The notes under the pieces: generated by a model
What the model was told of the DNA's origin: nothing
Seen by the model: the letters and a program-made list of their open reading frames with translations, nothing else
Database searches by the model: none
Assembly (NCBI GenBank): GCA_009781445.1
Contig: WQYD01000005.1
Coordinates: 1 to 63,707 of the forward strand
Direction: 5' to 3'
Source of the DNA: Bacillota bacterium
GTDB taxonomy: Bacteria; Bacillota; Clostridia; Christensenellales; DTU072
Length of the DNA stretch: 63,707 nucleotides
Translations under genes and position numbers: made by a program
Part shown: in pieces, positions 41,311 through 63,707 of the stretch
How the letters are laid out: the number at the start of each line of letters is the position of its first letter
How positions within the stretch are numbered: the first letter of the stretch is position 1

Positions 41311-41325
41311 CCTCTTGCAAATTGT

Positions 41326-41354
41326 TTGTTATTTTTCGCTTTTTATTGTATACT
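41326..41354 (+). promoter_or_regulatory. Promoter of the DUF1858 gene
   Basis: TTGTTA (41326-41331) and TATACT (41349-41354) are 17 nt apart, 36 nt before the ATG at 41391. It is divergent from the ttcA-like promoter. Confidence 0.65.
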
Positions 41355-41390
41355 GAAACCATAAAAAATGATTTAAAGAGGTGTTTTATC

Positions 41391-41597: not shown

Positions 41598-41774
41598 CAA
41601 AAGTTAGCCCTTTTCAAGACAAAACGAAACCACGAAATCGGTAGCTGCTAAAGAGTGTACGGCGCGATTCTGTTGCTATAGCTACAAAATTATGCACAAT
41701 ACACAGCGCACAGTGCGCGTCAGAGCAATTCCGCACAGAAAACACCAAATGTCAACCGCCAATCACCAAAAAAC

Positions 41775-41797
41775 CCGCACTTCTGTGCGGTTTTTTT
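41775..41797 (+). terminator. Rho-independent terminator with alternative upstream pairing partner
   Basis: CCGCAC-TTCT-GTGCGG is followed by seven T residues, a good terminator about 180 nt after the DUF1858 gene. The segment 41731-41740 is an exact 10-base complement of 41781-41790 and could form a competing hairpin. The 41598-41774 stretch otherwise shows only a repeated ~46-nt word (41645-41690, again at 41823-41868). Confidence 0.8.
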
Positions 41798-41860
41798 GTG
41801 AGGTATGAAAATATTTTTGGCACTTGTTAAAGAGTTTATGCTGTAATTTTGTTGCTATAG

Positions 41861-41975
41861 CAACGGAATATCGCAAAGCGAGGCTTTGCGGTGATATTTT
41901 CCCTGCGGAAAAATGATATTGCTATGCAATGATATTCGCTACGCAAATGATATTTGCCTTATGGCAAGTGTATGA
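41861..41975. repeat. Array of small hairpins with TGATATT spacers
   Basis: Successive short inverted repeats (GCAAAG...CTTTGC, TTTTCC...GGAAAA, TTGC-TATGCAA, TGCC-TTAT-GGCA) are separated by TGATATT. Same class as 1-190. No gene. Confidence 0.65.
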
Positions 41976-41989
41976 TAAATTTAGAATGC

Positions 41990-42255
41990 AGAATTAAGGA
42001 CGAAATTATAAAATATTAAATATGAAATATGAAATATAAGAACCTGCCTGTGGCAGAACCTTGGTGTCGCCTTGCAGGCTTAACTAAAAATATAAATTGA
42101 GGATTCTAAATCTCATTAAGAGTAATGACGACTTACAACTTACGATTTACGAATTATGGATTTAGTTATCATAACTCTAATCCCAAACAACTAATCATCA
42201 ATCTCAAACAATAATTCCATAATTTATATTTCATATTTCATATTTCATATTTCCA
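41990..42255. repeat. Word-mosaic intergenic repeat (copy 7)
   Basis: AAATATGAAATATGAAATATAAG at about 42006-42040, GATTCTAAATCTCATTAAGAG, CGACTTACAACTTACGATTTACG and ATATTTCATATTTCATATTTC at about 42223-42255, the last being the complement of the first. No gene is seen. Confidence 0.7.
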
Positions 42256-42283
42256 CATTTCCATTTTTCACTCTTCTTTCCCC

Positions 42284-42486
42284 GTTTACTGCCCAGTTTG
42301 GCAAAAAATTTGTAGTAAATAAAAAGTCTTTTGTTGTTTTTGGTTAATGTATTGACGGATTTTTAAATTCATGTCAACATTGGTGTTTATTTGGTGTTGC
42401 TGGTATGTTAGCATGTTAGGTTAGCGTGCAGAGAGAGGGTTATTTTCAGTTTACTGCCTATTTTTGGCAGAAAATGTGCAGTAAAC
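42284..42486 (+). promoter_or_regulatory. Twin hairpin motifs upstream of the giant gene
   Basis: Two related ~37-nt units (42284-42320 and 42449-42486) each have ends GTTTACTGC and GCAGTAAAC (second copy perfect, first copy with two changes) and an inner TGCC...GGCA stem. They are 165 nt apart, 360-560 nt before the giant gene start. They could be protein-binding sites or RNA hairpins. No clear promoter is recognised between 42300 and 42846; TTGACG near 42352 lacks a matching -10. Confidence 0.4.
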
Positions 42487-42639
42487 AAAAAAAGTTTTAA
42501 AACATTCAAAAAAGTATTTACAGCCGTGCGAAAAAGTGCGACAATTGAAGCGTGGGGTTATGCGCGCTACGCTTTCGCGTACGCGTAATAAAATAGTTGC
42601 GCATGGCGCATATAAAGGCGAGGGGCGAGAAAAATATAA

Positions 42640-42830
42640 AATATGAAATATAAAATATAAATTTCGGAATCTAAATATCATTATTGAGTAATCCGCAATT
42701 CTGAATTCTGAATTCTTAATTCTGAATTAATCCACAATTCGTACTTCGTACTTTGTACTTTGTACCTCGTACTTCAAAACGAAACACCAACCACCAATCA
42801 CCAAACACCAACAACTAACCACCTTATTAA
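42640..42830. repeat. Word-mosaic intergenic repeat (copy 8)
   Basis: AAATATAAAATATGAAATAT words, TCTAAATATCATTATT, GAATTCT repeats, CGTACTTCGTACTTTGTACTT and finally CCAAC/CCAATCA words that run to the ribosome binding site of the giant gene. Confidence 0.75.
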
Positions 42831-42846
42831 AAAAGAGGAAACAGAC

Positions 42847-45800
42847 ATGAGAAGATTTTTAGCTATGAACAAGAACGCCATTACAAAAGTTGCGATTATT
42901 GCGCTAATTTTAGCGGTTATCACAACCATAGTGCTTGTTAGCGTGCCGTTAGGCGGAAGGGGTAGCGATTCCCGCTTGCCTTCGGATCACGGCAATGTGA
43001 TTTTAAGCCCGCCGATTGATAACCCTCTCGGCAAGTCTTACGAATACACAATCCGTAAGCAGGGTTCAACTTACATAGCGGAAAGCTATTATGTTAGCAC
43101 GGGCGCGTACACAGTTGCGCAAGGCTTGGTGCTGAACAACATAATGGGCGCAATCCGTGAGGACGCAGACGGCGCGGACAGCGAAGTGCTTTTCGGGCAA
43201 GGGCAAACCCTCAATGTGGGCGATGATGCTTTAAGGTTCTTCAATAACGATTTCATGATTCCTTGGGGAACTGTTACCGTAAGCGGAACTATCACAGGCA
43301 CGGGCGGTAACACCGCAGTGGTTGTGGTGGAAGTTCCTAACATTATCTTTAACGCGAACGCGACTGCCACGGGCGCAGGCGAAGCAATCCGCTTTGCAAG
43401 CGAAGGTGATTTAACGATTCAAAGCGCGACTATCGCAAACAGCGGTAGCGGTACTGCAATCCGCAATATGGGTGAAGGTAGCTTGTACGCAATTGCCTCA
43501 ACGCTCACAAGCAACGGCTCGGCGGTAGTGGTTAACCAACTCGGCACAGCGGTTTTAGATAATTCCACCGTTACTAACACAGGTTCGGCAGGCTTTGCGC
43601 TAAATAACAGCGATATAGCCGTTATCACCGAAGGAAGCACGGTTACTTCAAGAGGAACTGTTGCCACGGTTTATAGCCAATACAGCGCAAAGCTAACAGT
43701 GGGCGCAAAAAGCGCGGTTATAGCTTCTGGCATTGCAAAAGTGGAAAACACAGGGCTTGGCTCTGCAATCCAAACGCTTTCCACAGATTCAGCCACTCAA
43801 ATTTTGGCAAGTGCGCAAATTTTAAATAACAGTTCTTTTGCCACAATTCAATATTCAGGCACAGCCACCCTTTTAATTACAGGCGCGAAAGTGGCAAACG
43901 CTGGCGGTGGTGCGTCCATTAACAGCACGGTTGAGGGCGGAAATATTACGCTTGGCGGTTTGGTTCAAATCACTGGCGAAATCCGCATTTTCCCAAGCCA
44001 ACTCGGGGTAGATGTTTCAAGCACACCTTCAAGGTTTAACCCCGGTTCGGCGGTTTTCAATGTGTGCGTGAACGGCACTTCCCCCCAAGATTTCGGCGTG
44101 GGAAGCAAATTCGTGCTTAACGGTTCGGTTTTCAGCAACAATTTCACACTTACGAACACTGGCTTTATTGCAGGAAAAGGGCTTGGCGCGGATAGCGTTC
44201 ACCTTGTGATGCTTGTGGCAAATGTGGAAACCTCGGATTATTATATCGTTACAAAAGCTAACGATTTATACACAGTTTCTGGTGAATATACCCCTGGGGG
44301 TAACAGATATTCTTTGGCTAACGGAATTACCTCAGCCAAGGCTTCGGCAGAATTGATTAAATCTTCCGCAGGCGGAAGAGATGTTAGCATTTTCTTTGGC
44401 TGGGCAAACCTTGCCACGGCTTTCGGCAGAGATATTTTTGAAATCAGCGGTTCGGGCTGGGGCGAAGTTACGCTACTCGGAAACCTTGCGGGCATGGTTC
44501 AAATCGGCGAAGCAAAAGATTATAACAGGGATACTTGGTTCAGCACAGTGGGCGTGAATGTTATTAGCTACGCTAACATTGCTTATTCAAGTTCAGATTC
44601 CCCCGCTATCCGCTTATGCGTTAATTCAACCTTAACCATTCTTGGCGGTGCGGTTATTTCTTCGCAAGGCTATGCGGTAGGCATGGACAGCGGAATAGAT
44701 TGGGACACAGGCTATAATTTATCTGAAGCCTCATTCTTGCATATTAACGGCGCAAGTGCAGTGGTAGACGGCGTGGACGGCGGAACGGTTCTTCTTGAAA
44801 AAGGCACAATCCGCTACCAAGTGTACTACACTTATTTTACAATGACTGGCGGAACGCTAACCAATATAGAATACACTTACTTGCTTGAAGGTTCGCACAT
44901 TTCGGGCGGTGAAATTACTTCGGCTACTAACGGCAATTCTTATGTTTTGTTTGACGGCAGTTACACAATATCAGGCGGTAAAATAACTTCACATTCTGAT
45001 TATGCGTTTAGAACAGGCTGGGACGCTTACGGTGGGGATTTAACTGCGGTAATTGATAACACAGGCGGAAACCTTGTGCTTGATATAAAGGGCAAACTTT
45101 TATGCTACGGCTATTATGAAATATTCAATATAGATACAGTTGTGGGTGACGGTATTGGTGGTGCGCGCGATATTACCTTGATTAACAGCAAGATTGTGGC
45201 AAACAACGGTGATGGGCTTAGAGGCGATGGCGGTGGCTTTTTAAGGGCTGAAATCATTAACAGCCATATTGAGGCATTGTACGCTGGCTTATATATTGAT
45301 TCACTTGTTGGCGAATCAATCATATCGGATAGCACGATAATATCGCACTCGTATTACGCTCTTGCTGGGTTCTATTCTTACGGCAATGACGCTTTCCTTA
45401 CGATAACAAACAGCACAATAACTTCCTATGATTCTATAGCGGTAACTTTAGCTATTCCGTTCTTAATTGAGGACGGCACGATTAGTGCGCCAAGCAGTGG
45501 CATTGCATTTCAAATTAACGATGCACCTGCTACGGTAAAAAACAGCACAATCACGGGCGATATACAAATTTGGAACGAAACTTCATTCTTTACACTCGGT
45601 GGCGAAATAATACTAAACGGTTCAATAGTATTAGTTCCGCAGGATGTTGGGGGCGCTGGGCTTGCTTTGGACGATTGCTTTGTTCCTATGCAAACTTACC
45701 AACTGCATTTGGCAGGTTCGTACGGTGTGGAATATGAACCGGGGGCATTGGTGGTTGCTAACGGCGGAACACATATTTCTTACTTTGAGGCAAGTTCTAT

Positions 45801-48800
45801 AGATCCGCCCTCACGCGTTGAGTTGGCTTTAAGCATGCGCCCTGGATTTGAAAATGATATCGTGGTAGAAGGCGCAGACGATAGCAGAGGATTTGATTAT
45901 ATAATCCGTGCAGACGGCGTGTTCTGCGCAGATACCAATTTCAGAATATCTGCTAACAATCTTCAAGAGGGCTTAAATGCAATCCGCAGAGATGCAAGAG
46001 GGCAAAGCGTTAACATTACAATTGAGGGTACGGCAGGAATTAACAGCTGGAATCCAAGCCCCTCGGCAACAAACACCCGCCGTTTTGAAAATGACGGTTC
46101 AAGCAGGTGGGGTACAATACACCTTTATGCTGATAGCTATCATTTCACCATTAACACCACTAATAACTATTTGAATACTCTATTTGTGGTAGGCACAGGC
46201 GTTCATGTGGTTAGCTACATTAACGCTTCACGAATCCACGGCGATCAATACGAAACACAAACAAACAATGACGATTTGATTTTTGATGTGCTTGAAGGCG
46301 GTAGGCTAACAATAGCGGAAGGGCTTTTGATTAACAAATATGCAGATAGGCACACAAATGTTATCAGGCTTGCTGAAAACAGCACGCTTAAAGCCGAAGC
46401 AATAATTAACGGCGGTGATATTTTTGGCGGATTTATTATCGGTGGCGGTACGCTAACCATGAACGCTGGGGATGTTTCCATATTCTACTCGTTCTCTTCA
46501 AGCAGTTCCCCTCAGTATGCAATTAACAATGTGCATACCGCAATTTCTATCGGAAGTGGCGGAACTTTGAACATTAGAGGCGGTTACATAAACATTAACC
46601 AAATGACAGGTTACTCAGTGAACCTTCTTGCAATCGGAAGCGGTGATAGCCTTGCAAGCACCGATGACGATATTACCATTTCAATCACAGGCGGTACAAT
46701 AGACATAAGGCAACAATCCACATTCGCGCGCCTTACTGCTATAGACGCGGGTCGCGCGGGCGCGAACATATTAATAAGGAATGCAGAGTTGAATATTACT
46801 CAGCTTTGCACAAGCAGTGGCACGGCTACCGCTTTAATTACAAGGACGGAAGCCACAATCACATTTGATAACGCTACCATTGATATTAACCAAAACGGCG
46901 CATCTGCTTCCTCTGTGGGAATTGCAAGCGGTACTAACGGTATCTTTAACATTACGGATAGCACGGTGGAAATGACGGATAGCACCCCAAGGCTTATCAA
47001 TGTACAAACTAACACACTTCTCACAATCACAGGCAGTGAAGTGCTTACAGTAAGCACATATCAACAGGTTTCCACCTCTTATTATGTTATCCAAGCCTCA
47101 AATGAAAGCATAGTAACGGTTATAGACAGCTTAATCAGAAGTTTCAGCGGAAATGCGATTATCGCACAAGGCGGAAGCACAATCAGGCTAATCAGCGGAA
47201 CTGTGCAATCAGGCACAAGTGCTTCGGCAAGATCCATTACGGATACTTCTTCTGCCTCAGCCACAAACCAAGCCACAATTGAATTTAACCCTAAAGCCCT
47301 TGAAATTAAGGGTATTATGAAAATCAATTCCGAAAAACTTTTCGTGATTGAGGTTGAAGGCCCTGATATGGGGCAAATGTTCTTATTCCACATTGAAATT
47401 AACGGCGAAAGTTTTGTGGATTTCTCTTTGGGTTCAATAGCGGTTATGGAAGGCGAACAATACGCACTCAGATTCCGCTCAAGCCAAGGCTTCTCAATGG
47501 CAATTTGCCCATTTAGTTCGGCGGAATTCCCCGGATACGGAAACTTGATTCTTGGTATCAGCTTGCCCGAAATTGAACTATTTTACATAATCAGGCATAA
47601 CACAACTTCAGGTGATTACCGCTACGATGTGTTTAAAACAGACGAAGAGGGCAATGAAGAACAAATAGTGGAAAACAAAGCCATGGAATACGCCCTTGCA
47701 GACACACGCGTGGATGCAAACGGTGCTGTGGCAGAACTTTACTTTGAAAATGTTAACACAAATATAAGGATTGATTTATATAACTTCTATGACGAAGCAT
47801 GGGGCCCCATTGTTCTTCGCGGACAAGTTTACAGCACTTTAAGCACTGATTACACATTCAAAATATCTGAAAATATGCAGGTATATATGGATATGGACTT
47901 AACAAGTTCACAAAGTGCAGGCGGTGCGGTGCAAGTGGCAGGCACAACCGCGCTTAGAAGTACCTTATATATAATAGACGGCACGATTTCTTACGCAAGT
48001 AGCGGAACAATTATCCATGCAAGAACATCCAATGTGTTCATTATCGGCGGTAGGGTTGAAAGGCTTGCAAACGGAAGCAACACAGCAAGCGGTTCGGTGG
48101 TTGATATAAGTGATAACACTTCGCAATTTTACATTGAGGGTGAAGATACGCGTATCATAAACCACCAAAATGCAGGAAGCGCGGAAAACACGCTTGCCAC
48201 ATTGCGCCTCGGAAGCACTGCTAACGCGGTGTTCATGGGTGGCAGAATTCTATCCACCGGAACAGTTAACACAATTTACGCGCAAGGCGCAACGATATCA
48301 CTTCGCGGTGGTCAAATTATTAACACAGCGGAAGGAATTGCTATTTACAATGCCTCGGCTTCGGTAAATATTTCAGGCGGTACGATTTCTGCGCTTGGCG
48401 GTTATGCTTACTGGGGTGCAACAAGTATTTCTTACCATAACTCATTGTCAGGACAGCTTTCAATGAGTGGCGCACCCAAATTCATTGGTGATTTCTCTGT
48501 AAATTCCAACCTTCTTTCCGCAAGCACAACCTTAAACCTTGGCAATGATATTATTAAGGTTTATTTAAGGGGCAACTTGGCAGACGATTGGACGCTCGGC
48601 ACAATCGTAATGCGTGGCGGTGTTGCGCACATGGCGAACTTTAACTTTATCTTCGTGAACCCAGCTTCCGATGCAGGTTCAGCCTACTTCTTTGGTGCAG
48701 GGCTTGGCTCAAGTGCTAACCATGTGGTGGTAAGCCATGCCAAAATGGGTACGCAAACTTACGAATACTACTATTTGCAAGTTACAGGCGGAAGAAGCAT

Positions 48801-51800: not shown

Positions 51801-54800
51801 TAATTGGTATTGGTGGGGGAATTTGTATTATGAAGCCGGCATGATTGATATTTTTGCAGAATCAGTGGCATATACTCTCGGCTATGAAAACGATTACGGT
51901 GAATGGACAATTCTTTACTTAATTCAAGAGGTTACTTTAGGGCAAAACATTACGGGCAAAATTTCGGTATACGCGGAACATTTCCGTGCGCAACTATCAG
52001 ACGGCTGGGGCGGACATAGGGACGAACACGGCAATTGGACAAATCTTTACGCCCCTGCGCACTTCCCAAGTTCATTCCCTATCACTTTAAGCGGTGAATT
52101 CGGAATTGATTGGCATGAAGGTAGCAGAGTAATGTGGTGGGGTGCGCCTTACGCTAACGAAGTGTTGCTTACTAACAGAGGCTTTATTGCTTCCCCCGGG
52201 CGCAGTTATGAAGACATGGACGATCTTGTGGCAACAAGCTACATTCCTCTTGGTATTTACACAATAACCCAAAGCGGTAACTACTTTATGGTAATGGGCG
52301 AACGCTTGGGCGGTGCGCCTTACCTTGTGGCTTATGACGGTGATTTGAATTTTGCATTCGGCGAAATCCAATATGACGCAAGAAATCTAACTGAAATCAC
52401 AATTAACTTCGGCTTACTGGGTAGCCCCCTAAATATCGGCGCACGCGGTAATATCACCCTAAGCGGTGCATGGCCTAAAACTAACTTTGCAGGCACGCTT
52501 GACGCTTCCTTTAACGGATATTTATTTAGCTACGGTAGCGGTGTTAACATTGCAACCACTGCAAATATTGCTAACGCAAGCGGTGGCGTATTTAACCAAA
52601 CAGGCGGTAGCCTTTCCATAGAAGGCGGTAACATTACCGCAGTGGGCAGGGCAGTTAATGCCACAGGCGGAATGGTTTACATGAGTGGCAACCCTCAAAT
52701 CCAAGGCAGAATCAATGCAGGGATAGCAGGAATTGACGCTTCGGGATTAGTACCTACCACAACCCGCCTTTATGTGGTGGAATCCGAAAATGCAGTCCCC
52801 GGCAATGTTATGATAATTAACGGCGCGCAGTGGGCAAGAAACTTTGCTTTCGCAAGCAATGGTTACTTCTTTGCAGTTGGCACAGGCATACACGAAAACC
52901 ACCTTGTGGTATCCGATATTGCCACCAAACTTTATGCTTATGAAATCACTAAGAGTGGTAACACATATATCGCCACAGGCTACCGTTCAGACGGTGCAAG
53001 ATATGTGGTGGATAACGGCGTTGCGGATAGCGTGCAATCAGCGGTAGATGCCATTAAGGTAGACGCTGAGGGCAATAATCTATCAATCACATTTGTGGAT
53101 TTCAGCGAAGTGCTTGATATTAACACAAATCTCGTAACCTTAAATAACGCAATCGGCACATGGGGTACAATCACCCTTGCAGGCGCAATTATTAGCAATG
53201 TTAACGGCGGAAGTGATTCAGCGGTTATTATCATTGAAGACGGCGTAAGCGTTCAAAGTTTCCTTGATATCACTAACAGCGGTAACGCCTATGCCTTTAG
53301 AAATAACGGCGCAGGCACGCTAACAATCACAACCGGTAGCGTGCTTAACACAGGCACTGGAAGCGTTATCGGAAACTACGGCGGTGGCACGCTTGCTATC
53401 GGTGGCGGTACGGTTAATTCTTCCACAAAAGAGGCAATTATATCCACTGGCGGTATTGTGGATATCTTCGGCACAACTTCGCAAGTTGTCGGCAAAGGCG
53501 AAGCGGTACTTCTTGTGTCAAATACGGCTTTAAAACTTAACGGTGGCTTGGTTACCAATGCAAGCGGTGCAAATGATTATGCGGTTAAGTTAACTGATAA
53601 TCAGTCCTCTTTAACAATCGGCGGTAGCCCCAAATTGGTTGGCAATCTTGGTGCTTATCCCGAACAAATCACAGTTATAAATACCTTTAATCCCACTTCC
53701 GTTTATAGCGTTGTTCCTCAAGGTTCGTATCAAACGGATTGGAATGTTGGGGATATTTATGTGTTCGGCGGTGCTAACTTCTTGCTTAACTTCATGCTTG
53801 AAAACGAAGAAGGCTTAAGCCTTAATAAGCAAGGCAATAACCTTATCGTTTCCACAGAATCACCTGCTATTTACCGTTATAGAATTGTTAACGGTGTTTA
53901 TCCTCTTTACGAAGTTTATGGCTTCTATGCCAATAATCAAGAGTTCTTAATGAGTAATAGCCTTCCGGGTATTCCTGAGGCTTTAAACCTAATCAATTCA
54001 GACGCTAACGGTGCAAATGTGGAAATCATTTTCGGCAAAGGCGGTTCTGATATTCTTGATATGCGTGCGCCAAGCATTCAGTCACCTTTCAATGTGGCTT
54101 TCAATAACGATAACGGCGTTTGGGGCAACATTACACTTCTTGGTTCTGCATTTAAATATGCACGCCCTATAATTCTTGACGGTGTAACAGTGGTAAGCAG
54201 GGCAAACATTTCAAAGCATGAATATGACATGGGCGTGTTTGAATTGTTTGACGATGTTACCTTTACTATTGAAAGCGGTTTGTTAGAATCTTGGGCTGAT
54301 ATAGTGTATTTCTCAGGTTCAAGATCAACGCTTAATGTAACGGGCGGTGAATTAATATGCTATTCCGGTACTAACGGTTATGCTATCAATATGTCGTCCG
54401 TAGAATCGCACAACATTGTTAACATTTATGGCGAAAACACAAAAATTATCGGTGCAAGCGCAATTAGCATAAGTGGCGAAGGTTCAACCGTAAATGTTTA
54501 TGGCGGGGAACTAATCAGCAGAAGATTCTCTGTTATTGATCAAGGTTGCTATACTACCCTAAATGTTTATGACGGCAGTATTTTAGCTGAACACGGTTGG
54601 AACGGCGTACTTTGGGGCTGTTGCTATTCGGTAATAAACATTTACGGCGGACTACTTGAAAACCTAAACCCTGTTGATGACGATTATAATTACAACCCCA
54701 TTGTGGACGATATTCACTCAAGCATTTGGATGCAAGGTGCAGAGTTTAATATTTACGGCGGTACAATTAACGCGCTTGTTTATGCTAAGTATTGCCATTT

Positions 54801-57800
54801 TGGTTGGTGTTGTGACAGTGTGGACGCAATAGTAACCTTAGGCGGTACGCCCGAAGTTAACAGGACTATTATTCTTGTTAGCGGATCTGTGGCAAATGTG
54901 GTAACAAGCGGTGCTAACGCATTTAACCCCCAAGGCAATATTTACACATTAGAAGTTCGTGGCGGAAGAGCGGGCGATATCGTGGTTCTTAACGGTGCAA
55001 ACTTCTTAAGCCGTTTTAACCTTATTAAGAGTTCATTTACCCTTGAAGTTATCGGCAATAACATTGTTCTTTCAAATAGCGCACCCAAAACTTATGAGTA
55101 CACAATCGTGGAAGAAAATAGGGGCGGAAATATCGGCTTTGCAGTTTACGGCGAAAGGGTAAACGGTGCTATTTATGAAGTTATCTTCACAAGCGTTATT
55201 GCAGATGCTATTAACGCAATCCGTTCAGACGCCTCAGGCTTTGATTGCAATATCACCTTTGGCAAAGACGGCGAAACCTTGGATATTGGTTCGGCTTCGG
55301 CTGTATTCAGCAATGCGGGCATTAGCACATGGGGAACAATTTACCTCTTTGGTAGCTTATCCGCAGGCGTAACCTCTGCTAACTCTGCCACACTTCGCAT
55401 TGAAACAGACGCAGTTGTACTTTCTTGGGCAACCGTTGAATCTTACGCGGTGGGCAATGCAGTTCAGCATATGGGCGCGGATATTCTTTATATTCGCGGA
55501 ACTGTTATAAACAGCGCAGGCGGTAGATCAGCTGTAAATATGTCCTCAGGCACATTAGAGTTTGAAGAAGCGGTTGTTACCTCAAACGGTTCGTCTGCCA
55601 CTGTGGCAAACTTGGGTTCGGGCAGGCTTGTTATTGAAAACGGTAACCTAATTGAAAACACTGGCACAGGTTCAGCAGTCCAAGGTTCAGACACAGGCTT
55701 AATCTTCATGGATCGTATATCCACAATCCACGGTAACATTTCCGTGTTTGTTAACACGCTTCATGTTCGCGTATTCAACCCTGCTGTTAACGATAAATTC
55801 TATATTGATTTAAGAGGAAATCTTGGTGAAGATTTTGTAACTGGTGATAGCGTGGTTATCGGCGGTGCAAACTACTTTGATAACTTCTATTCCGCAAACC
55901 AAAGCAACTATTGGTTCGCACTTGGCGAAGGCGCAAAGATTAATGATATTGTTGTGGGCGGATATAAAACTTACGAATATATCATTTCTAATGTTGGCGC
56001 AGGTTCATATAAGGTTGAAAGCGCGCTTTCTAACGGTTCAAGATTCCAAATTGCTTTCGGGCTTTGCATTCAAGAATCTTTAATGACAATCCGCCACGAT
56101 GCCGAAAGCTACGATGTTAAAATAACATTTGAAAATGTGGATTTAGGCAATAGTTCCGTAACGATAAGTGATTATGATTTCATGGGCTACACTGGCACAT
56201 GGGGCGTGATTTCAATTTACGGTGATATCACTTCTGAGGGTTCAACCGCCACGGTTATCACGGAAGACGAAGTTATCGTTAAGAGTTTTGCAAACATTTC
56301 TAACACAAGTGATAACGGCAAAGCGGTTCTTCACGGCAGTGCGCAAATGCTTGCGATTGCAGGTGGTGAGATTAACGGCAGTGTTTCTGCTTTAATCACT
56401 GCGGGCATTCTTGCACTAACCAATACCCCTGTAATTAACGGCGATATTGCTGTGTTCAGTTCTCAGCTTGATGTTTCGGCTGTGGGCGCGTTTGTACCTC
56501 AATCAAATCAGTACACCGTTCACCTTCTTGGCAATTTCAGCACAGGAAGCGTGGCAGTTGCTGGCGCAGGAAACTTCTTAAGCAATTTCGTGCTTTCAGA
56601 TAGCTTAGCCGAAACTTATAGGATAGTAAGAGGCACAGGCACAAATAGTAACCACCTTGTTCTTGCAGGCTTTATTAGTGAAATCCATATCACTAATGTG
56701 GTAGCCCCTGTGGGCGGGCAAACGCCTAATTTCACTTCTGCATTACCCGCGCATTCTTCTTATAGCGTGGTAGAAACTTCTTGGGCGCCTGTGGCAGGTT
56801 CGTTTGGTTACGGCACTGTGTACACAGTCCGCGTAACGGTATCTGCAAGTGCTAACTATAGCTTTGCGGATATAATAGGCTTCGCCACAATTAACGGAAG
56901 CGTTGCCGAAGTTACATATAACTTAAACGGCACTATAACCTTAGCACTATCCTTTGCAAAAACCGCCTGCGCGCCTTGCGATTGCTGTGGTTTCCACTTC
57001 GGCGAACTTTGCGGTGAGGAAGATTGCGAATTTACCAAGGCTTGCAACTGCCGTTTCTGCGATTGTTGCGGTAAGTGCCAAAGGCATGCTGATCCTGAAG
57101 AGTGCTGTTGCGATAGGTGCTATTGCTATTTCTGCGCTTGCGGTGTTTGCTTAGAGTGCGATTGGTGCGAACATTCTTGCACGCATTGTGCAGACGAAGG
57201 CTGTTGCTGGTGCGATTGGGAAAATTGCGGTGTTTGCTATTGCTATCTTTACGGCGAAGAAGGCAACATTCGTTGCTGGGGTTGCACTGTTCATGATATA
57301 TTCTGCGAAAATTGTTGCGAGGCTTGCGAATGCACAACTTGTGATAATTGCAACGCATGGTGCTTATGCCCCTGCGGTGGTTGTTCAAAATGCGGTGATT
57401 GCACCTGCGATTGTGAGCATTGCGGTGATCAAGGCTGTTGCTGGTGCGAATGGGATATCTGCTATGGCTGTTATTGTTGCAGTATCTGCTTAATTCATGA
57501 ATCCTGCGATTGCGAGGTTTGTGGCTATTGCTGGCAGTGCGGTTGGTGCGGTTACGAATGTGATTGCCCCTGCAAACTTTGCGGATATGAGGGTTGTTGC
57601 GTATGCGATAGCGAAAATTGTAAAAGATTCCCCTGCCCCTGCCCTGATTGCGATCATTGCGGATTCCATGTGGATTGCTGTGGCTATTCAAGTTGCAGTT
57701 GCAGAGATTGCGGTTGCGAATTCTGCGGTTGCGGTGCTTGCTATCTGCATGACGAACCTTGCGATTGCGAATGTTGGAACTGCGGTGATATAGGCTGTTG

Positions 57801-60800
57801 CTATTGCGAGGATACTTGCTATGGCTGTTGGTGTTCTATTTGGGGCGAGGGCTTCCCTTGCAGTAATTGTTGCGTGCCACACGGGCTTTGCGATTGCGTT
57901 GCTTGTGGCGAATGTGGCGTGTGCCTTTGCGCTTGCGGTGCTTGCCCAAATTGTGACGGTTGCGAACATAATTGCCAATTCTGTGAAGACGAAGGCTGTT
58001 GCTGGTGCGAATATTGGTTATGCTATGGTTGCTGGTGCTGTGGCAATTGTGAAACGCACAAACCTTGCAAGTGCTATTGGTGCGGTTGCAACAACTGTAC
58101 TCAATGCCAAGAACACCACTTCTGTATTTGCGTGGTTTGCGGTTGCGGTATGTGTTCCTTCCATGACGGCGGTTGCGATTGCGAATGCAAGAACTGCGGT
58201 GATATATTCGGCGGTTGTTGCGTATGCGATCCCGATAATTGCTTCATTTATAGTTGCCCCTGCCCTGAGTGCCATTATTGCGTAGCACATAAGTCGGTAT
58301 GCCCCCCTGGGTATTGTAGCGGTGGCTGGTGCGAATGGTGCTGTGTTTACGGCGTGGGTAAACAAACCTGCGATTGCTGGTGGTGCAACACTTGCGGTGA
58401 ATGCGGTATACACGGTGATTGCCAAAGCTATAGGTGTGAGGACTGTTTCTGTCCTTCGGGTTGGATTTGTTCAAAAACGGGCAGTTGCTTCTGCGGATAT
58501 TGTGACGATTGCGAATGGTGTCTTTGCAGTTGCGAACACAGCGAATGCTATATAAATGAGTGCAGAGGTTGCTGTAAATGCGAATGGTGGAATTGTGGAC
58601 ATTGCTATTGCGGTACTTGCGGTTGTGCTAACCACACAAATGCAAAATGCGTTTGCACATATTGCCCTTGTTCACAGTGCGGGCGTTGCGAGGTTCACGA
58701 ATACTGCCGTTGCGTAGCTTGCTATTGCGGTAACTGCTTATTCCATGACGGTGACGATTGCGGTTGCGGTTGCAAACACTGTGCAGACGAAGGCTGTTGC
58801 GTATGCGAATCTGATTACTGCAAAATATATAAGGATTGCCCCTGCGGTTGCAATTACTGCTTTGTTCACCCGCCTTACTGCGGTTGTTGGGATTCCCCTC
58901 ATTGCAGTTGCAATAAAATTATAAACGGTTGCTGGTGCTGGTACTGCGCTTGCGGTGCTTGCATGGAATGTGATCCTTGCGAACACTGGTGCGATAATTG
59001 CGCAGATATAGGTTGCTGTTATTGCGAATCGTGGAACTGTATTTACTGCGATTATTATTACGATAATGAAAATTGCGTATGCTGTCCATGTGTTCACAAC
59101 GGGCATAATAATCAATGTGACGGCGAAAACAGGTGTTCCTTCCACTTCCCGCCTTGCGATTGTGAATTGTGTACTTTATGCGGTTTCTGCATTTGCGTAG
59201 TTTGTGGCGAATGTATGGATTGCGGTGATTGTTGCGGTGTCGGCTGTGTTCATTGCGAAGATAACGGCTGTTGCTTGTGCAGTGAGTGCAGTACATGGTG
59301 TTGGTGTTGCTATATTTGCGAAGCGCACCTTGGCGGTTGCATTTGCTATTACTGCGATTGTTGCGGTGTTTGCCTAAATTGCTTTGCGTGCAAGTGCGAA
59401 GTTTGCCGTTGCGGTTTGTGTGCATATCATGACGGCGGTTGTGATTGCGAATGCAAGAACTGCGGTCATTGGTACTTAGGCTGTTGCGTTTGCAAGCCTG
59501 AAACCTGCAAGAAAAAGACTGATTGCCCCTGCCCCGATTGCGATTGGTGCTATACTCACTTCCACCGTTATTGGTGCGGTTGCAACCCCAAGGATTGTCC
59601 TCACTACTGTTGCCCAGGGTGCGCTGAAGAACAAAATGTAATTTACGAATGTGAATGCTGGTTCTGCTTAGCCTGCGGTGCTTGTTGGGAACATGGCGGT
59701 TGCGAACACACTTGCCCTTATTGTGGCGATCAAGACGGTGGCTGTTGCCATTGTGATTGGGATAATTGCGATTGGTGTCCCTGTAGCTTCTGCTGGAATT
59801 GCACGGAACATGATAATCCGTGTGATTGCTGTTTCCCCTGCAAATGCACTATCTGCACAGATTGCTATAATGGTTGCTTATGCGCCTGCGGTGCTTGCCC
59901 CCATTGTGAGGGTTGCGAGGATTGTGACTGCGGGTACTGCGGTGACGAGGGCTGTTGCTTCTGCGACTATTTGAGGTGGGAATGCTATTACTGCGATTGC
60001 TGTAGCGTTTGCAGAGTTCACTCTAATATGCCTTGGAATCCCTGCAATTGCACTATCTGTGACGAATGCGATTACTGCACAGTTCACAGCTTCTGCCGTT
60101 GCTTCTGCGAACTCTGTGATAGCCAAGGCTGTTGCGAATGCCGTGATAGAGATTGCGATTGGTGCTGGTGCGAAAGGTGCGAAAAGTGCTATGTGCATGA
60201 CATCTCGTGCGTGTGCTGGTTCTGCTATAATTGCGGATATTGCATGGTTCATTTCCCGTGGTTCTGCTTCTGCGAATGCAATTTCTGTGACGGCAGTGGC
60301 TGTTGCGCATGCGATAGCGGAAATTGCCAAATCTATGATTGCGTCTGCGAAGATTGCAACCATTGCTTAACCCACGCTTGTTGCTGTTATAGCGAATATT
60401 GCGAATGTTGGTTCTGCGAACAATGCGGTGAATGCTTTATCCATGACGATTGCGGGCATTGCCAATATTGCGAAGGCGAGGGCTGTTGCTTATGCGAAAG
60501 CGAAAAATGCTTCCACTGCGCTTGCTATAATTCCTATCAATATAATGGCTGTGAAGCCTGTTCGTTCCACCAAATATGCTATTGCGAAACCTGCACGCTT
60601 TGTGATTTCTGCCTCTGCGAATGCGGTGCTTGCCTCAAATGCGGTGATTGCGAACATCGTTGCCCGAGGTGTCTTGATTTAGGCTGTTGCTTCTGTGATT
60701 TCTGGGCATGTAACCGTTGTTCTTGCTGTGACGGCTGTTTGAACCATGGTAGACCTCACCCCCACCCCTGCAACTGCGATTCCTGCGATTGCTGTGGCGG

Positions 60801-63707
60801 TTGCGTAAAGCACAAACAATGCACTTGCGAAGTCTGCCCTTGTTGCGATTCTTGCAAGCCCCATGTTTATTGGTGCAACTGCGATATTTGCGATAATTGT
60901 TCAACCTGCAATTACTGCGATTGGTGCGATTGCTGTAATCTCTGCGCTAATGAAGGTTGCTGTGAATGCGAACGCTGGCGGTGCAGGTGGACTTGCGATT
61001 GTTGCTGGTACTGCGCAAGGCACGATAAAGAACCCTGCGGTTGCGTCATGTGTTACGGTTGCTGGAATTGCCAATTGTGTGACGGCGCGTGTGATTGCCC
61101 CTGCAAAGGTTGTGGGGACGGTAGCGGTTGTTGCCTATGCGAATCAAAATATTGCTATTTCATTGATTGCCCCTGCCCAGAGTGCCACGCTTGCTTCTGG
61201 CATCATAATGGGTATAATGAGTATAACTTCGGCTGTTGGTGCTGGTTCTGCGTATCCTGCGGTGGTTGTGCGATAAGATCTCACATACTTGACTGCAATT
61301 GTGCCTGTGATCACTGCGAAGGCGAGGGCTGTTGCCACTGCGATCAATCTAACTGCAAACCCTGCAGTTGCGATTGGTGCAATGGCTGTAGAAATCACAA
61401 AGATTACTTCCCTGATTTTTATTACAAGGAATGCAAATGCGTTATCTGTGACGAATGCGATAATTGCGTTTGCCCTGCTTGCGGAGAGTGCTATAACGCG
61501 GGATTCTGCGATAGTTCCGCTTGTGAATGCGAATATTCTTGCAGACTTTGTAAGGACGAAGGTTGTTGCAAATGCAGTTGGTGGGATTGCGTTAAATGCC
61601 GTTGCAATCAAAGCCATTACACAAGCTACTGCAGGCACTGCATAACCCACAATGCTAACCCCTGCGATTGCGATAATAACATTTGCGATTGTTGCGGTGT
61701 TTGCACCATTCACATGATTTGCCCCTGCGAAGCGTGCGCGGATTGTGATTCCGAGTGCTTTAGGCATGACGGCTGTAAGTATTGCCCGTGTTGCGACACT
61801 TGCGCAAATGTGGGCTGTGCTTGCGAAATCTGCCCGTGTTGCACCGTTTGTCAAGTTGATAGTTCCTGCGATTGTAGCATTTGCAGGTGCGGTGCTTGCC
61901 TTACATGTTACGAATGCGAATGCTGTGAATATTGTGGTGGTGACGGTTGCTGTTGGTGCGATTGGGATAATTGCGATTATTGCAGGCGTTGCTGTTGGAA
62001 CTGTTCTACCCACGAAATGCCTGATTGCGGTTGCGTAGTGTGCGGTTGCTGGAATTGCGAACTTCATGACGGCGGTTGCGATTGCGAATGCAAAAATTGC
62101 GGTGATTATTGGAGAGGCTGTTGCGTATGCGATCCTGATAACTGTAGCATTTACATTTGCGCTTGCCCTGATTGCAATTGGTGTCACACCCACGATTGGA
62201 ATAGCTGTTATTGCTGGTACTGCGCTTGCGGTGCTTGCACAAGTTGCGACCCCTGCGAACATTGGTGCAGTTGCGGTGATATAGGCTGTTGCCACTGCGA
62301 AGGTGGCTGTTCGTACTGCCAATGCGGTTGGTGTTGGAGTTGTTCAAAGCACATGGGCGCTTGTGGCTGTTGCTTACCTTGCAATTGCGATATTTGCGAA
62401 GTTTGTGATTGGTGCTTATGCCCCTGCGGAGGTTGCCCAGGTTGCGGTACTTGCCCCCAAGATCATAAATGCTTTAACTGCGCAGACGATCCTAACGGCT
62501 GTTGCGCTTGCGATTGGGATAACTGCGATAGGTGCGCTTGCGATAAGTGCGAAAAATGCTTCTGCAAAGGTTGTCAGTTTAGGTGCAAGACTCATAGTGG
62601 CGAATGTTCTTGCGTTATATGCTACTGCGGTGTTTGCCAAACGCATGAAAGAGAATGCGTATGCAAATGTAAATTATGCGGAGATTGGGGCTGTTGCGTA
62701 TGCGAACCCCTTGAGTGCTTAGTATTCAATTGCCCCTGCGAGGAATGCCGTTACTGCAGACATCACCCCGATAACACACAGGGTTACTATGAAAGGTGCC
62801 GTTGCGAATTCTGCTGGATCTGCGGAGAATGTGCTTGGCACAACGGTTGCGAACACAAGGAAACTTGTATTTATTGCGGTGGCGAGGGCTGTTGTATTTC
62901 AGGTGTAAGGTGCGATTCCAGACCCTGCCGTTACTGCCCACCGGGTTGCCACAAATCGTGGGGGTACTACAATTGCAGAACTCACAATCCTAATATTAAT
63001 AGTTGCGATACTTGCGATTGGTGTCTTTGCACCGTTTGTGGCGGTTGCCAAAACTGCGGTACTTGTAACCACGAGTGCAAACACTGCGAAGACGAAGGCT
63101 GTTGCTTTTGCGCCGATTGGTGGGAATGCGATTATTGCCCATGCGTTGGGTGCAATGTTTGCCGTGCGCATGCTATAGATTACCATTATGTATTCTATGG
63201 CTACAAGATTGAATGCGAATGCACTTATTGCGCCTGTTGCTTAGCGCGTTGCGACTTCTGCGATAGCACGAGATATCGTTGTAGCACTCACTTCACCTGC
63301 GCTTGTATCACTTGCGCTTGCGGTGCTTGCACAGTTCACAATCCTTGCGAATGTCCGTGCAATGAATGCGGGGAAATCGGCTGTTGCGTTTGTGAAAGCG
63401 GTAACTGCGTAATCTGCAAATGCGATAACTGCACAACCCACAAATCCTGCGAATGCACCTGTGATTGCGAGGACGAAGAAACCTGTTGCGACTGCGATAG
63501 CGGAAACTGCGTAATCTGCGAATGCGATAACTGCACAACCCACGAATCCTGCGAATGCGGTTGCGATTGTGACGGTGACGAAACCTGTTGCGAATGTGAC
63601 GAAGTTAACTGCAAAGAATGCGTATGCTGTGAAGCCTGCGTAACTCACGAACCTTGTGATTGCCACTTCTGCGCTTGTGAAGCCTGCTTAGAGTGCGACG
63701 CTTGCGA
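42847..63707 (+). CDS. Giant surface protein: beta-helix repeats followed by a >2200-residue cysteine-rich tail (incomplete at window end)
   Basis: One frame open for 6953 codons from ATG 42847 (GAGGA 7 nt upstream) to the window edge; I read each codon line and saw no stop. Residues 15-33 are a hydrophobic anchor or uncleaved signal. Residues about 40-4640 are Gly/Asn/Thr/Ser/Ile-rich with strand-turn patterns expected of right-handed beta-helix or adhesin-like proteins, arranged in at least 11 units joined by TYEYxI motifs. Residues about 4640-4700 form a short beta domain (YGTVYTVRVTVSASANYSF). From residue 4708 (base 56968) composition switches abruptly to about one-third Cys, with Gly, Asp, Glu, Trp, Tyr, His. 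Anchor, sortase motif and true C-terminus lie beyond the window. Neighbours give no functional clue. The tail could bind metals, form a disulfide-braced stalk or act as a redox store; I recognise no family. Confidence 0.93.
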   Translation, partial: MRRFLAMNKNAITKVAIIALILAVITTIVLVSVPLGGRGSDSRLPSDHGNVILSPPIDNPLGKSYEYTIRKQGSTYIAESYYVSTGAYTVAQGLVLNNIMGAIREDADGADSEVLFGQGQTLNVGDDALRFFNNDFMIPWGTVTVSGTITGTGGNTAVVVVEVPNIIFNANATATGAGEAIRFASEGDLTIQSATIANSGSGTAIRNMGEGSLYAIASTLTSNGSAVVVNQLGTAVLDNSTVTNTGSAGFALNNSDIAVITEGSTVTSRGTVATVYSQYSAKLTVGAKSAVIASGIAKVENTGLGSAIQTLSTDSATQILASAQILNNSSFATIQYSGTATLLITGAKVANAGGGASINSTVEGGNITLGGLVQITGEIRIFPSQLGVDVSSTPSRFNPGSAVFNVCVNGTSPQDFGVGSKFVLNGSVFSNNFTLTNTGFIAGKGLGADSVHLVMLVANVETSDYYIVTKANDLYTVSGEYTPGGNRYSLANGITSAKASAELIKSSAGGRDVSIFFGWANLATAFGRDIFEISGSGWGEVTLLGNLAGMVQIGEAKDYNRDTWFSTVGVNVISYANIAYSSSDSPAIRLCVNSTLTILGGAVISSQGYAVGMDSGIDWDTGYNLSEASFLHINGASAVVDGVDGGTVLLEKGTIRYQVYYTYFTMTGGTLTNIEYTYLLEGSHISGGEITSATNGNSYVLFDGSYTISGGKITSHSDYAFRTGWDAYGGDLTAVIDNTGGNLVLDIKGKLLCYGYYEIFNIDTVVGDGIGGARDITLINSKIVANNGDGLRGDGGGFLRAEIINSHIEALYAGLYIDSLVGESIISDSTIISHSYYALAGFYSYGNDAFLTITNSTITSYDSIAVTLAIPFLIEDGTISAPSSGIAFQINDAPATVKNSTITGDIQIWNETSFFTLGGEIILNGSIVLVPQDVGGAGLALDDCFVPMQTYQLHLAGSYGVEYEPGALVVANGGTHISYFEASSIDPPSRVELALSMRPGFENDIVVEGADDSRGFDYIIRADGVFCADTNFRISANNLQEGLNAIRRDARGQSVNITIEGTAGINSWNPSPSATNTRRFENDGSSRWGTIHLYADSYHFTINTTNNYLNTLFVVGTGVHVVSYINASRIHGDQYETQTNNDDLIFDVLEGGRLTIAEGLLINKYADRHTNVIRLAENSTLKAEAIINGGDIFGGFIIGGGTLTMNAGDVSIFYSFSSSSSPQYAINNVHTAISIGSGGTLNIRGGYININQMTGYSVNLLAIGSGDSLASTDDDITISITGGTIDIRQQSTFARLTAIDAGRAGANILIRNAELNITQLCTSSGTATALITRTEATITFDNATIDINQNGASASSVGIASGTNGIFNITDSTVEMTDSTPRLINVQTNTLLTITGSEVLTVSTYQQVSTSYYVIQASNESIVTVIDSLIRSFSGNAIIAQGGSTIRLISGTVQSGTSASARSITDTSSASATNQATIEFNPKALEIKGIMKINSEKLFVIEVEGPDMGQMFLFHIEINGESFVDFSLGSIAVMEGEQYALRFRSSQGFSMAICPFSSAEFPGYGNLILGISLPEIELFYIIRHNTTSGDYRYDVFKTDEEGNEEQIVENKAMEYALADTRVDANGAVAELYFENVNTNIRIDLYNFYDEAWGPIVLRGQVYSTLSTDYTFKISENMQVYMDMDLTSSQSAGGAVQVAGTTALRSTLYIIDGTISYASSGTIIHARTSNVFIIGGRVERLANGSNTASGSVVDISDNTSQFYIEGEDTRIINHQNAGSAENTLATLRLGSTANAVFMGGRILSTGTVNTIYAQGATISLRGGQIINTAEGIAIYNASASVNISGGTISALGGYAYWGATSISYHNSLSGQLSMSGAPKFIGDFSVNSNLLSASTTLNLGNDIIKVYLRGNLADDWTLGTIVMRGGVAHMANFNFIFVNPASDAGSAYFFGAGLGSSANHVVVSHAKMGTQTYEYYYLQVTGGRSMVRGYFADGTWYTIMDTATVSSGALSRTFQFAIPQDAIASPTVDLIFGFNGDPFNLGTQTMSLTSTWTLSGKIVSFTGNIIGNLNSTYSSLVSLNAELSGSYPREILFDAQIHNFGTAPALSVGREGATQAGVSFLGGIVKNTGGGSALQISGVYRSNNGYLTAISDSTEPTVTFSTHRRSYEVHGLHATNLGSGPALGITGVIGERGLGNTSVHYTISGENTVLRSEGGAGIFFSAFHDETAAVETSFTMLGGTVSGLTAGIHITGHTSVHRPLEVNINGGTVFSNNGNAVVIGQYATLTFAVERTDKATSAPVLYSISGYALHFTNYLRDIYIGEEATVYSINSYAIITQGHLYINSSNSAEIPTKIYSVNGVAIAIDGYSLWGSTVHFVDNGGEIVIFSEGGYAIAVSGSGNVRGYGTSTQVTIYSIPSHAIYVYGFGGIHLDSMRASVYIYSELDIPVYLQSTWTNSQSHFHVANRIVNFAEDMPSIYTAQSINLAHGSGNTSPVGIEGHILLDYSATIQLSNSSAPKGANETGEVSVRLAGEPNVDWVTGAIVATNSGHASQLALFTHYTLDGEGDIQLRRVSNNIVIYFAGVPAEPGYNDYIIYNNTSGGFTLLEGATNWQFSNHDMENIISALDFRTQHFAQQTGNYMFTLRFGRTDSEWLNIGDQTVFFINGMLGFYMLGNIRGSSSEGVVVFHGHLWGYSGVIISCNITSEGSGLALASNGAWLHFARGTIQNTGTGGAYSDKSGHWDGMWWGGWEYAPYTHVGSNLPVSFLSNSATVPTVYISGLLYLYGKNVTIKNTALGGTALHMQGGADISLDYYNNRYYGNGSYEDQMSRLYSNGISPYMFAIIDNAVSAELPHGLILIEGCTGILIPIGGDVRVMVGDPRRVSGSITIRSNGIGSAVENHGVFLLKDPNVVPPSMGPRNWGGGGEYQVTDFNPNVQVLVTSSGDYTIFSTGYMLIPAYSNVQIVNSGTGYAIYGWEPDPDFYDYHGNWYWWGNLYYEAGMIDIFAESVAYTLGYENDYGEWTILYLIQEVTLGQNITGKISVYAEHFRAQLSDGWGGHRDEHGNWTNLYAPAHFPSSFPITLSGEFGIDWHEGSRVMWWGAPYANEVLLTNRGFIASPGRSYEDMDDLVATSYIPLGIYTITQSGNYFMVMGERLGGAPYLVAYDGDLNFAFGEIQYDARNLTEITINFGLLGSPLNIGARGNITLSGAWPKTNFAGTLDASFNGYLFSYGSGVNIATTANIANASGGVFNQTGGSLSIEGGNITAVGRAVNATGGMVYMSGNPQIQGRINAGIAGIDASGLVPTTTRLYVVESENAVPGNVMIINGAQWARNFAFASNGYFFAVGTGIHENHLVVSDIATKLYAYEITKSGNTYIATGYRSDGARYVVDNGVADSVQSAVDAIKVDAEGNNLSITFVDFSEVLDINTNLVTLNNAIGTWGTITLAGAIISNVNGGSDSAVIIIEDGVSVQSFLDITNSGNAYAFRNNGAGTLTITTGSVLNTGTGSVIGNYGGGTLAIGGGTVNSSTKEAIISTGGIVDIFGTTSQVVGKGEAVLLVSNTALKLNGGLVTNASGANDYAVKLTDNQSSLTIGGSPKLVGNLGAYPEQITVINTFNPTSVYSVVPQGSYQTDWNVGDIYVFGGANFLLNFMLENEEGLSLNKQGNNLIVSTESPAIYRYRIVNGVYPLYEVYGFYANNQEFLMSNSLPGIPEALNLINSDANGANVEIIFGKGGSDILDMRAPSIQSPFNVAFNNDNGVWGNITLLGSAFKYARPIILDGVTVVSRANISKHEYDMGVFELFDDVTFTIESGLLESWADIVYFSGSRSTLNVTGGELICYSGTNGYAINMSSVESHNIVNIYGENTKIIGASAISISGEGSTVNVYGGELISRRFSVIDQGCYTTLNVYDGSILAEHGWNGVLWGCCYSVINIYGGLLENLNPVDDDYNYNPIVDDIHSSIWMQGAEFNIYGGTINALVYAKYCHFGWCCDSVDAIVTLGGTPEVNRTIILVSGSVANVVTSGANAFNPQGNIYTLEVRGGRAGDIVVLNGANFLSRFNLIKSSFTLEVIGNNIVLSNSAPKTYEYTIVEENRGGNIGFAVYGERVNGAIYEVIFTSVIADAINAIRSDASGFDCNITFGKDGETLDIGSASAVFSNAGISTWGTIYLFGSLSAGVTSANSATLRIETDAVVLSWATVESYAVGNAVQHMGADILYIRGTVINSAGGRSAVNMSSGTLEFEEAVVTSNGSSATVANLGSGRLVIENGNLIENTGTGSAVQGSDTGLIFMDRISTIHGNISVFVNTLHVRVFNPAVNDKFYIDLRGNLGEDFVTGDSVVIGGANYFDNFYSANQSNYWFALGEGAKINDIVVGGYKTYEYIISNVGAGSYKVESALSNGSRFQIAFGLCIQESLMTIRHDAESYDVKITFENVDLGNSSVTISDYDFMGYTGTWGVISIYGDITSEGSTATVITEDEVIVKSFANISNTSDNGKAVLHGSAQMLAIAGGEINGSVSALITAGILALTNTPVINGDIAVFSSQLDVSAVGAFVPQSNQYTVHLLGNFSTGSVAVAGAGNFLSNFVLSDSLAETYRIVRGTGTNSNHLVLAGFISEIHITNVVAPVGGQTPNFTSALPAHSSYSVVETSWAPVAGSFGYGTVYTVRVTVSASANYSFADIIGFATINGSVAEVTYNLNGTITLALSFAKTACAPCDCCGFHFGELCGEEDCEFTKACNCRFCDCCGKCQRHADPEECCCDRCYCYFCACGVCLECDWCEHSCTHCADEGCCWCDWENCGVCYCYLYGEEGNIRCWGCTVHDIFCENCCEACECTTCDNCNAWCLCPCGGCSKCGDCTCDCEHCGDQGCCWCEWDICYGCYCCSICLIHESCDCEVCGYCWQCGWCGYECDCPCKLCGYEGCCVCDSENCKRFPCPCPDCDHCGFHVDCCGYSSCSCRDCGCEFCGCGACYLHDEPCDCECWNCGDIGCCYCEDTCYGCWCSIWGEGFPCSNCCVPHGLCDCVACGECGVCLCACGACPNCDGCEHNCQFCEDEGCCWCEYWLCYGCWCCGNCETHKPCKCYWCGCNNCTQCQEHHFCICVVCGCGMCSFHDGGCDCECKNCGDIFGGCCVCDPDNCFIYSCPCPECHYCVAHKSVCPPGYCSGGWCEWCCVYGVGKQTCDCWWCNTCGECGIHGDCQSYRCEDCFCPSGWICSKTGSCFCGYCDDCEWCLCSCEHSECYINECRGCCKCEWWNCGHCYCGTCGCANHTNAKCVCTYCPCSQCGRCEVHEYCRCVACYCGNCLFHDGDDCGCGCKHCADEGCCVCESDYCKIYKDCPCGCNYCFVHPPYCGCWDSPHCSCNKIINGCWCWYCACGACMECDPCEHWCDNCADIGCCYCESWNCIYCDYYYDNENCVCCPCVHNGHNNQCDGENRCSFHFPPCDCELCTLCGFCICVVCGECMDCGDCCGVGCVHCEDNGCCLCSECSTWCWCCYICEAHLGGCICYYCDCCGVCLNCFACKCEVCRCGLCAYHDGGCDCECKNCGHWYLGCCVCKPETCKKKTDCPCPDCDWCYTHFHRYWCGCNPKDCPHYCCPGCAEEQNVIYECECWFCLACGACWEHGGCEHTCPYCGDQDGGCCHCDWDNCDWCPCSFCWNCTEHDNPCDCCFPCKCTICTDCYNGCLCACGACPHCEGCEDCDCGYCGDEGCCFCDYLRWECYYCDCCSVCRVHSNMPWNPCNCTICDECDYCTVHSFCRCFCELCDSQGCCECRDRDCDWCWCERCEKCYVHDISCVCWFCYNCGYCMVHFPWFCFCECNFCDGSGCCACDSGNCQIYDCVCEDCNHCLTHACCCYSEYCECWFCEQCGECFIHDDCGHCQYCEGEGCCLCESEKCFHCACYNSYQYNGCEACSFHQICYCETCTLCDFCLCECGACLKCGDCEHRCPRCLDLGCCFCDFWACNRCSCCDGCLNHGRPHPHPCNCDSCDCCGGCVKHKQCTCEVCPCCDSCKPHVYWCNCDICDNCSTCNYCDWCDCCNLCANEGCCECERWRCRWTCDCCWYCARHDKEPCGCVMCYGCWNCQLCDGACDCPCKGCGDGSGCCLCESKYCYFIDCPCPECHACFWHHNGYNEYNFGCWCWFCVSCGGCAIRSHILDCNCACDHCEGEGCCHCDQSNCKPCSCDWCNGCRNHKDYFPDFYYKECKCVICDECDNCVCPACGECYNAGFCDSSACECEYSCRLCKDEGCCKCSWWDCVKCRCNQSHYTSYCRHCITHNANPCDCDNNICDCCGVCTIHMICPCEACADCDSECFRHDGCKYCPCCDTCANVGCACEICPCCTVCQVDSSCDCSICRCGACLTCYECECCEYCGGDGCCWCDWDNCDYCRRCCWNCSTHEMPDCGCVVCGCWNCELHDGGCDCECKNCGDYWRGCCVCDPDNCSIYICACPDCNWCHTHDWNSCYCWYCACGACTSCDPCEHWCSCGDIGCCHCEGGCSYCQCGWCWSCSKHMGACGCCLPCNCDICEVCDWCLCPCGGCPGCGTCPQDHKCFNCADDPNGCCACDWDNCDRCACDKCEKCFCKGCQFRCKTHSGECSCVICYCGVCQTHERECVCKCKLCGDWGCCVCEPLECLVFNCPCEECRYCRHHPDNTQGYYERCRCEFCWICGECAWHNGCEHKETCIYCGGEGCCISGVRCDSRPCRYCPPGCHKSWGYYNCRTHNPNINSCDTCDWCLCTVCGGCQNCGTCNHECKHCEDEGCCFCADWWECDYCPCVGCNVCRAHAIDYHYVFYGYKIECECTYCACCLARCDFCDSTRYRCSTHFTCACITCACGACTVHNPCECPCNECGEIGCCVCESGNCVICKCDNCTTHKSCECTCDCEDEETCCDCDSGNCVICECDNCTTHESCECGCDCDGDETCCECDEVNCKECVCCEACVTHEPCDCHFCACEACLECDAC
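43033..56640 (+). repeat. Eleven divergent beta-helix units in the giant protein
   Basis: Unit starts marked by a Y-E/D-Y-x-I motif at about 43042, 44239, 45895, 47581, 48763, 50614, 52252, 52933, 53872, 55093 and 55969. The clearest copies continue with an AI-x2-IR-x-DA-x-G segment, an I-x-FG-x-G segment, then F-x-N...WGTI-x-L-x-G. Units end with a GANFLxNF...NHLV-like segment before the next YEYxI. Spacing varies from about 680 to 1850 bp, so units have lost or gained rungs. Confidence 0.75.
56968..63707 (+). repeat. Cysteine-rich modular tail of the giant protein
   Basis: About 30 GCCxC modules, 53-127 residues apart (commonly 57-75). B-type modules follow GCC[VAL]C-x4-C-x(3-5)-C-x-C-x2-C-x2-C-x2-H, starting at 57592, 58213, 58792, 59479, 60298, 61126, 62116 and 62689, with a shortened one at 63379. 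A-type modules (GCC followed by W, Y, H, F, L or K, then C) fill the gaps, often preceded by CEHxCxxCxDxG. A 13-residue HDGGCDCECKNCG segment recurs near 58165, 59431 and 62065. In 57001-57600 I count 64 Cys in 200 residues. Confidence 0.9.

Follow-up and report, generated by a model that had tools for sequence, protein, structure and literature searches.

The giant reading frame and its surroundings

The window analysed here comprises 63,707 bp and represents a whole contig (C5) of an assembly of 1.89 Mb in 98 contigs, which is 93% complete and 0.35% contaminated. Its end is occupied by a giant open reading frame on the forward strand (42847..63705), the strand to which all coordinates within this gene refer. 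The frame starts with an ATG at 42847, preceded by a Shine-Dalgarno-like AGAGGA read from the sequence (42834..42839, forward strand), and its translation continues for 6953 codons without a stop. A preliminary description of this DNA had claimed more than 6950 codons unbroken to the window edge and had named reads with a frameshift or stop between 42847 and 63707 as a finding that would speak against it; the claim is confirmed, and no stop is present in the sequence. Since the window is the complete contig and the frame reaches the contig edge, the C-terminus of the giant protein is missing. A 102-bp tandem repeat of 2.1 copies (63381..63593) shortly before the contig end is a likely cause of the assembly break. 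No continuation contig carrying the C-terminus was found in the genome, the sole similar sequence being an array on contig C1, described below.

Given the base composition at the codon positions, the cysteine-rich tail of the frame should contain about 138 stops and the preceding head about 130, and none was seen in either. The five alternative frames across the tail contain 28-181 stops. Codon usage in the tail does not discriminate between frames, one reverse frame correlating even slightly better, so that the coding status of the tail rests on the absent stops together with homology.

The remaining genes of the window are ordinary and include those for glycogen metabolism, glutamate dehydrogenase, FloA, NfeD and a putative manganese efflux pump. 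None of the neighbours of the giant gene within the window points to its function. This applies also to the putative efflux pump (Mntp, PF02659; 31749-32390), which lies about 10 kb upstream and has no evident link to it. Directly upstream of the giant gene, about 1.5 kb (41275-42846) are devoid of any ORF of at least 150 aa and rich in AT heptamer repeats. Tandem repeats with a period of 7, 14 or 21, mostly intergenic, recur at 460-491, 6299-6516, 8688-8716, 25925-25956, 35217-35387, 40392-40423, 42214-42270 and 42631-42823, as if the genome had a heptamer repeat system. Examples are AATTCTG and CATTGTGCGCTGTG, the latter identical at 6488 and 8688.

The head region

Residues 1-4707 (42847..56967) form a head of degenerate repeats of a putative beta-helix-like domain, rich in Gly, Ser, Ile, Ala, Thr and Asn and with only 18 Cys in 4707 residues. 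The translation begins, as judged by eye, with a basic and hydrophobic segment (42847..42954) that may be a signal peptide or a signal anchor. Five repeat units were aligned (alignment A3): the N-terminal copy at 43024..44286, units at 52939..53841 (also detected as a self-match), 53884..55026 and 55078..55941, and the final one at 55954..56646. Compared with the first unit, the others show 25-34% identity. A linker domain (56647..56967, with the stretch VAPVGGQTP) precedes the tail and resembles by eye a stretch of the second gene described below (DAPVGGETP).

For the unit at 55078..55941, AlphaFold2 predicted a hairpin-helix cap followed by many regular short strands (mean pLDDT 78, pTM 0.83). 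Searches with this fold in Foldseek gave weak matches, among them right-handed beta-helix proteins, those named as beta-helix at E 0.09-0.11 and an alginate lyase at E 0.32, and none with E <= 0.001. The head has no match in Pfam, and its last repeats were not found in the 57 other related genomes searched. The predicted strand pattern is consistent with a repeated beta-rich domain of the beta-helix type. The beta-helix repeats of the preliminary description fit this model and are, at the level of fold matches, unproven.

The cysteine-rich tail and its module

The tail (residues 4708-6953; 56968..63705) contains 672 Cys in 2246 residues (29.9%), besides 98 His, 79 Trp, 104 Tyr and 60 Phe. The length of at least 2246 residues given previously stands; the share of about one Cys in three was slightly high. 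The motif CxxC occurs 300 times, CxC 187 times and CC 63 times. The tail reads as about 30 degenerate modules in a row, most of them 53-95 aa long. Module intervals were defined by cutting at the anchor CC.C, which yields 29 intervals; besides those of 53-95 aa, three intervals measure 118-136 aa and the final pair 34 aa each, and some of the long ones probably contain two modules. The consensus of the aligned modules is GCCxC[DE]xxNCxxCxCxxCxxCxTHDxxCxCxxCxCGxCxx[C/H]xxxCx[C/H]xCxxCG[DE]. Two adjacent modules (61945..62283) form the first row of our module-pair alignment (A2).

The same module is encoded by a second, complete gene of this genome on contig C1 (locus L010, 6443-12820). Its product starts with a signal-peptide-like N-terminus and shows matches to cohesin and Ig-like domains. 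Five modules are present, four of them 54 aa long and the fifth shorter. There are also a dockerin and a hydrophobic C-terminal segment of the membrane type, which is followed by KHRKREQNK. The dockerin match is clear (Pfam, E 8.6e-9), and no second dockerin gene was found in the genome; the cohesin match is below threshold and the Ig-like matches are weak. At the DNA level, the arrays of both genes are 68-94% alike in short patches. The complete paralogue suggests what the missing C-terminus of the giant protein may look like. Two large ORFs adjoin the paralogue (L010, 12877-16359 and 16531-19998) and carry Listeria-Bacteroides (Flg_new) repeats; these ORFs are possibly a surface-protein cluster.

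With a profile of the paralogue modules, the tail reaches 1579 bits. Shuffling all residues other than Cys lowers the score to 1086-1162 bits, and shuffling every residue lowers it to 690-760 bits. Because the Cys-fixed shuffles score lower, the homology of the modules extends beyond Cys spacing to N, D, G and H positions. In aligned module pairs, non-Cys identity amounts to 27% against a null of 9.5%. Cys retention in the module alignments is 96%; as the shuffled controls reach 94%, this value on its own carries no weight as evidence. AlphaFold2 gave no usable model or metal site for a module pair (pLDDT 36); this says little because the alignment was Cys-rich and had 9 rows. The second gene, the defined module and the Cys/His exchange described below go beyond the preliminary description, which had one contig.

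Searches for relatives

No matches to the tail were found in Pfam and NCBIfam (up to E 1) or among the PHROG families, and nothing significant in the PDB, neither by sequence nor by profile. A protein search for the module in 58 genomes and a profile search in 396, 391 and 398 genomes of the order, class and phylum, respectively (overlapping sets, about 1,100 genomes altogether), detected it in its own genome only. This agrees with the earlier statement that no bacterial family with this architecture is known, and the close match of the tail to a characterised family that had been named as a counter-indication did not appear in Pfam, NCBIfam, PHROG or PDB. The exact pattern CCxC[DE]xxNCxxCxC occurs 16 times in contigs of 85k species, in each case in a short or unrelated frame; diverged relatives may escape a single exact pattern. 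Seven matches in viral contigs are not homologous by eye, and a tblastn search with the paralogue array detected nothing in viral contigs, plasmids and phages. Literature searches revealed no description of such an array.

Two side observations were made in these searches. A 465-aa frame of a viral contig (L064:1124-1231, IMGVR_UViG_3300032236_000387) contains 100 Cys and a CCNCDCC run and is not homologous by eye. In a genome of the same order (G364), eight forward matches to CxCxxCxCxxC were counted, which is above most relatives and within the range of the reversed-pattern control.

Comparison with known proteins

Metallothioneins are small proteins of one or few domains that bind metals by Cys and His, the latter being commonest in bacterial and plant representatives (PMC10612145). 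The bacterial SmtA type resembles the tail in its very high Cys content and in His as additional ligands, whereas here about 30 modules are combined in a giant protein that is probably exported and contains many aromatic residues. Membership of the tail in a described metallothionein family was rejected, there being no Pfam or NCBIfam match up to E 1.

The variant-specific surface proteins (VSPs) of Giardia exhibit frequent CxxC with CxC being distinctly uncommon, and substoichiometric zinc binding was reported for them; the High Cysteine Membrane Proteins (HCMPs) of this organism also contain CxC (PMC2996952). Both groups are surface proteins and, like the tail protein, rich in Cys and CxxC. 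However, VSPs are eukaryotic, no homology was found, and the 187 CxC and 63 CC beside the 300 CxxC motifs of the tail do not follow the VSP pattern. VSPs are further defined by a conserved C-terminal region, and this end of the giant protein lies off the contig. The parallel to VSPs drawn previously is therefore loose and superficial.

Giant surface proteins of Apilactobacillus (Giant1-5), for which a role in adhesion was proposed, comprise thousands of residues with an N-terminal beta-solenoid in Giant1-4 and rods of alpha-helical repeats; cysteine is never mentioned in that paper (PMC12863079). The likeness to them lies in size, in the putative N-terminal beta-helix and in the proposed adhesion, but the tail described here is an array of Cys/His modules. 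Giant ORFs are also known from the Omnitrophota (PMC10066038). A weak profile match to the DM domain (Doublesex, PDB 1lpv) covers CxxCxxH...C..C.C..C with a zinc-type spacing; this animal DNA-binding domain was rejected, as the match is not significant (E 0.049), and the likeness is probably convergent spacing. With 3 CxxCH in 2246 residues a multihaem cytochrome is ruled out. Similarity to cellulosome-type cohesin/dockerin surface proteins was seen in the paralogue; Pfam detected neither domain in residues 1-6953 of the giant protein, the C-terminus of which is missing. None of the compared systems matches the whole architecture.

Metal ligands or disulfides

In aligned module pairs, His accounts for 43% of the Cys replacements, compared with 5.2 +/- 3.6% (maximum 18.6%) in 100 Cys-fixed shuffles. 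More than half of the His residues of the tail (55%) have a Cys at position -3 (z +7.6), and direct contact of His with Cys is avoided (z -6.6 and -4.6). In the slot CGxCxx(Z), 18 Cys and 16 His were counted among 48 occurrences, and in the slot Cx(Z)xCxxC[AGCE][DE] there are 8 Cys, 5 His and 1 Val. His thus appears to act as an equivalent of Cys in the tail modules. Ligands of a metal may be either Cys or His, whereas a disulfide partner is not replaceable by His, so that this replacement pattern points to metal ligands rather than disulfides, and we infer metal binding by the tail modules. The exchange may go back to two ancestral module types instead of many independent swaps. An odd number of Cys was counted in 17 of the 29 modules, which gives no sign of closed pairing inside modules; as a parity test for disulfides it is neutral. 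Against a metallothionein-like tail speaks that aromatics are common in it, unlike in classical animal metallothioneins.

Proposed function and alternative explanations

We propose, with about an even chance of being right, that the gene product is a giant adhesin of the cell surface, borne on a stalk of metal-thiolate clusters (probably of zinc) that is formed by a giant metallothionein-like array. The product would be exported to the cell surface, where its first 4,700 residues may form a long rod or adhesin of the beta-helix type. The tail would line up some 30 small domains, all of a single Cys/His module type that has not been described before. Several metal ions, most likely zinc with four ligands each, would be held by the Cys and His of every module. 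These clusters, in place of a large hydrophobic core, would fold and stiffen the stalk. By analogy with the complete paralogue, the missing C-terminus probably anchors the protein in the membrane or wall, so that the head would point outwards and the Cys array would lie close to the cell. We infer export because of the N-terminal hydrophobic segment and because a putative signal peptide, the dockerin and a hydrophobic C-terminal segment are present in the paralogue; surface location, stalk role and anchor of the giant protein are likewise proposed, while the frame, its composition, the module with the Cys/His exchange and the paralogue are observed. The earlier suggestion of an undescribed class of surface protein is supported as far as the tail has no known family, and its surface part is plausible.

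The main rival of the metal-thiolate stalk, rather unlikely in our view, is a stiff, protease-resistant rod of small disulfide-bonded domains of the EGF or Giardia VSP type, with His being incidental or structural. The protein looks exported, disulfides are a usual state of Cys in exported proteins, fixed Cys with a variable remainder is typical of disulfide-rich domains, and aromatics are common in the modules. However, His is the main substitute at aligned Cys positions, odd Cys counts per module are as frequent as even ones, and no member of the VKOR family was found in a Pfam search of the genome. We regard as improbable that the tail has no fixed module fold and serves as a thiol-rich buffer, cross-linker or redox/heavy-metal trap in an outer matrix, in which metal and disulfide states interchange. 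Module lengths varying from 34 to over 100 aa would fit this, as would the failure of AlphaFold2 to fold the modules if it were not so uninformative with 9 Cys-rich rows, but the conserved N, D, G and H positions suggest a defined fold.

The extreme composition of the tail and the contig end just past a tandem repeat might also raise the suspicion that the frame or the assembly is faulty, or that non-coding repeats were translated. Such an explanation is barely credible in view of the missing stops, the Cys/His exchange and the occurrence of homologous modules in another gene, which is complete and has a signal-like N-terminus and a dockerin. As this gene belongs to the same genome and has the same module, a frameshift or assembly artefact behind the giant frame is very unlikely, and the tail is very likely real coding sequence.

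Taken as a whole, we hold it possible, at somewhat less than an even chance, that the modules are a new domain family, so far of one species, which forms a metal-thiolate surface stalk of at least about 30 modules carrying a beta-helix adhesin and that each molecule could accommodate roughly 150 zinc ions. This estimate counts the 672 Cys together with the His residues and assigns four ligands to each ion. Even without metal, no family has been described for such an array of 30%-Cys domains, longer than 2,200 residues, in a bacterial protein that is probably exported, and a defined, directly testable module of 54 residues emerges from the two genes. If the metal-thiolate reading is true, this would be a bacterial structural surface stalk made of metal-thiolate clusters, on a scale unseen in the families searched here, with a bearing on metal competition in microbial communities, on the mechanics of adhesins and on metal-binding materials.
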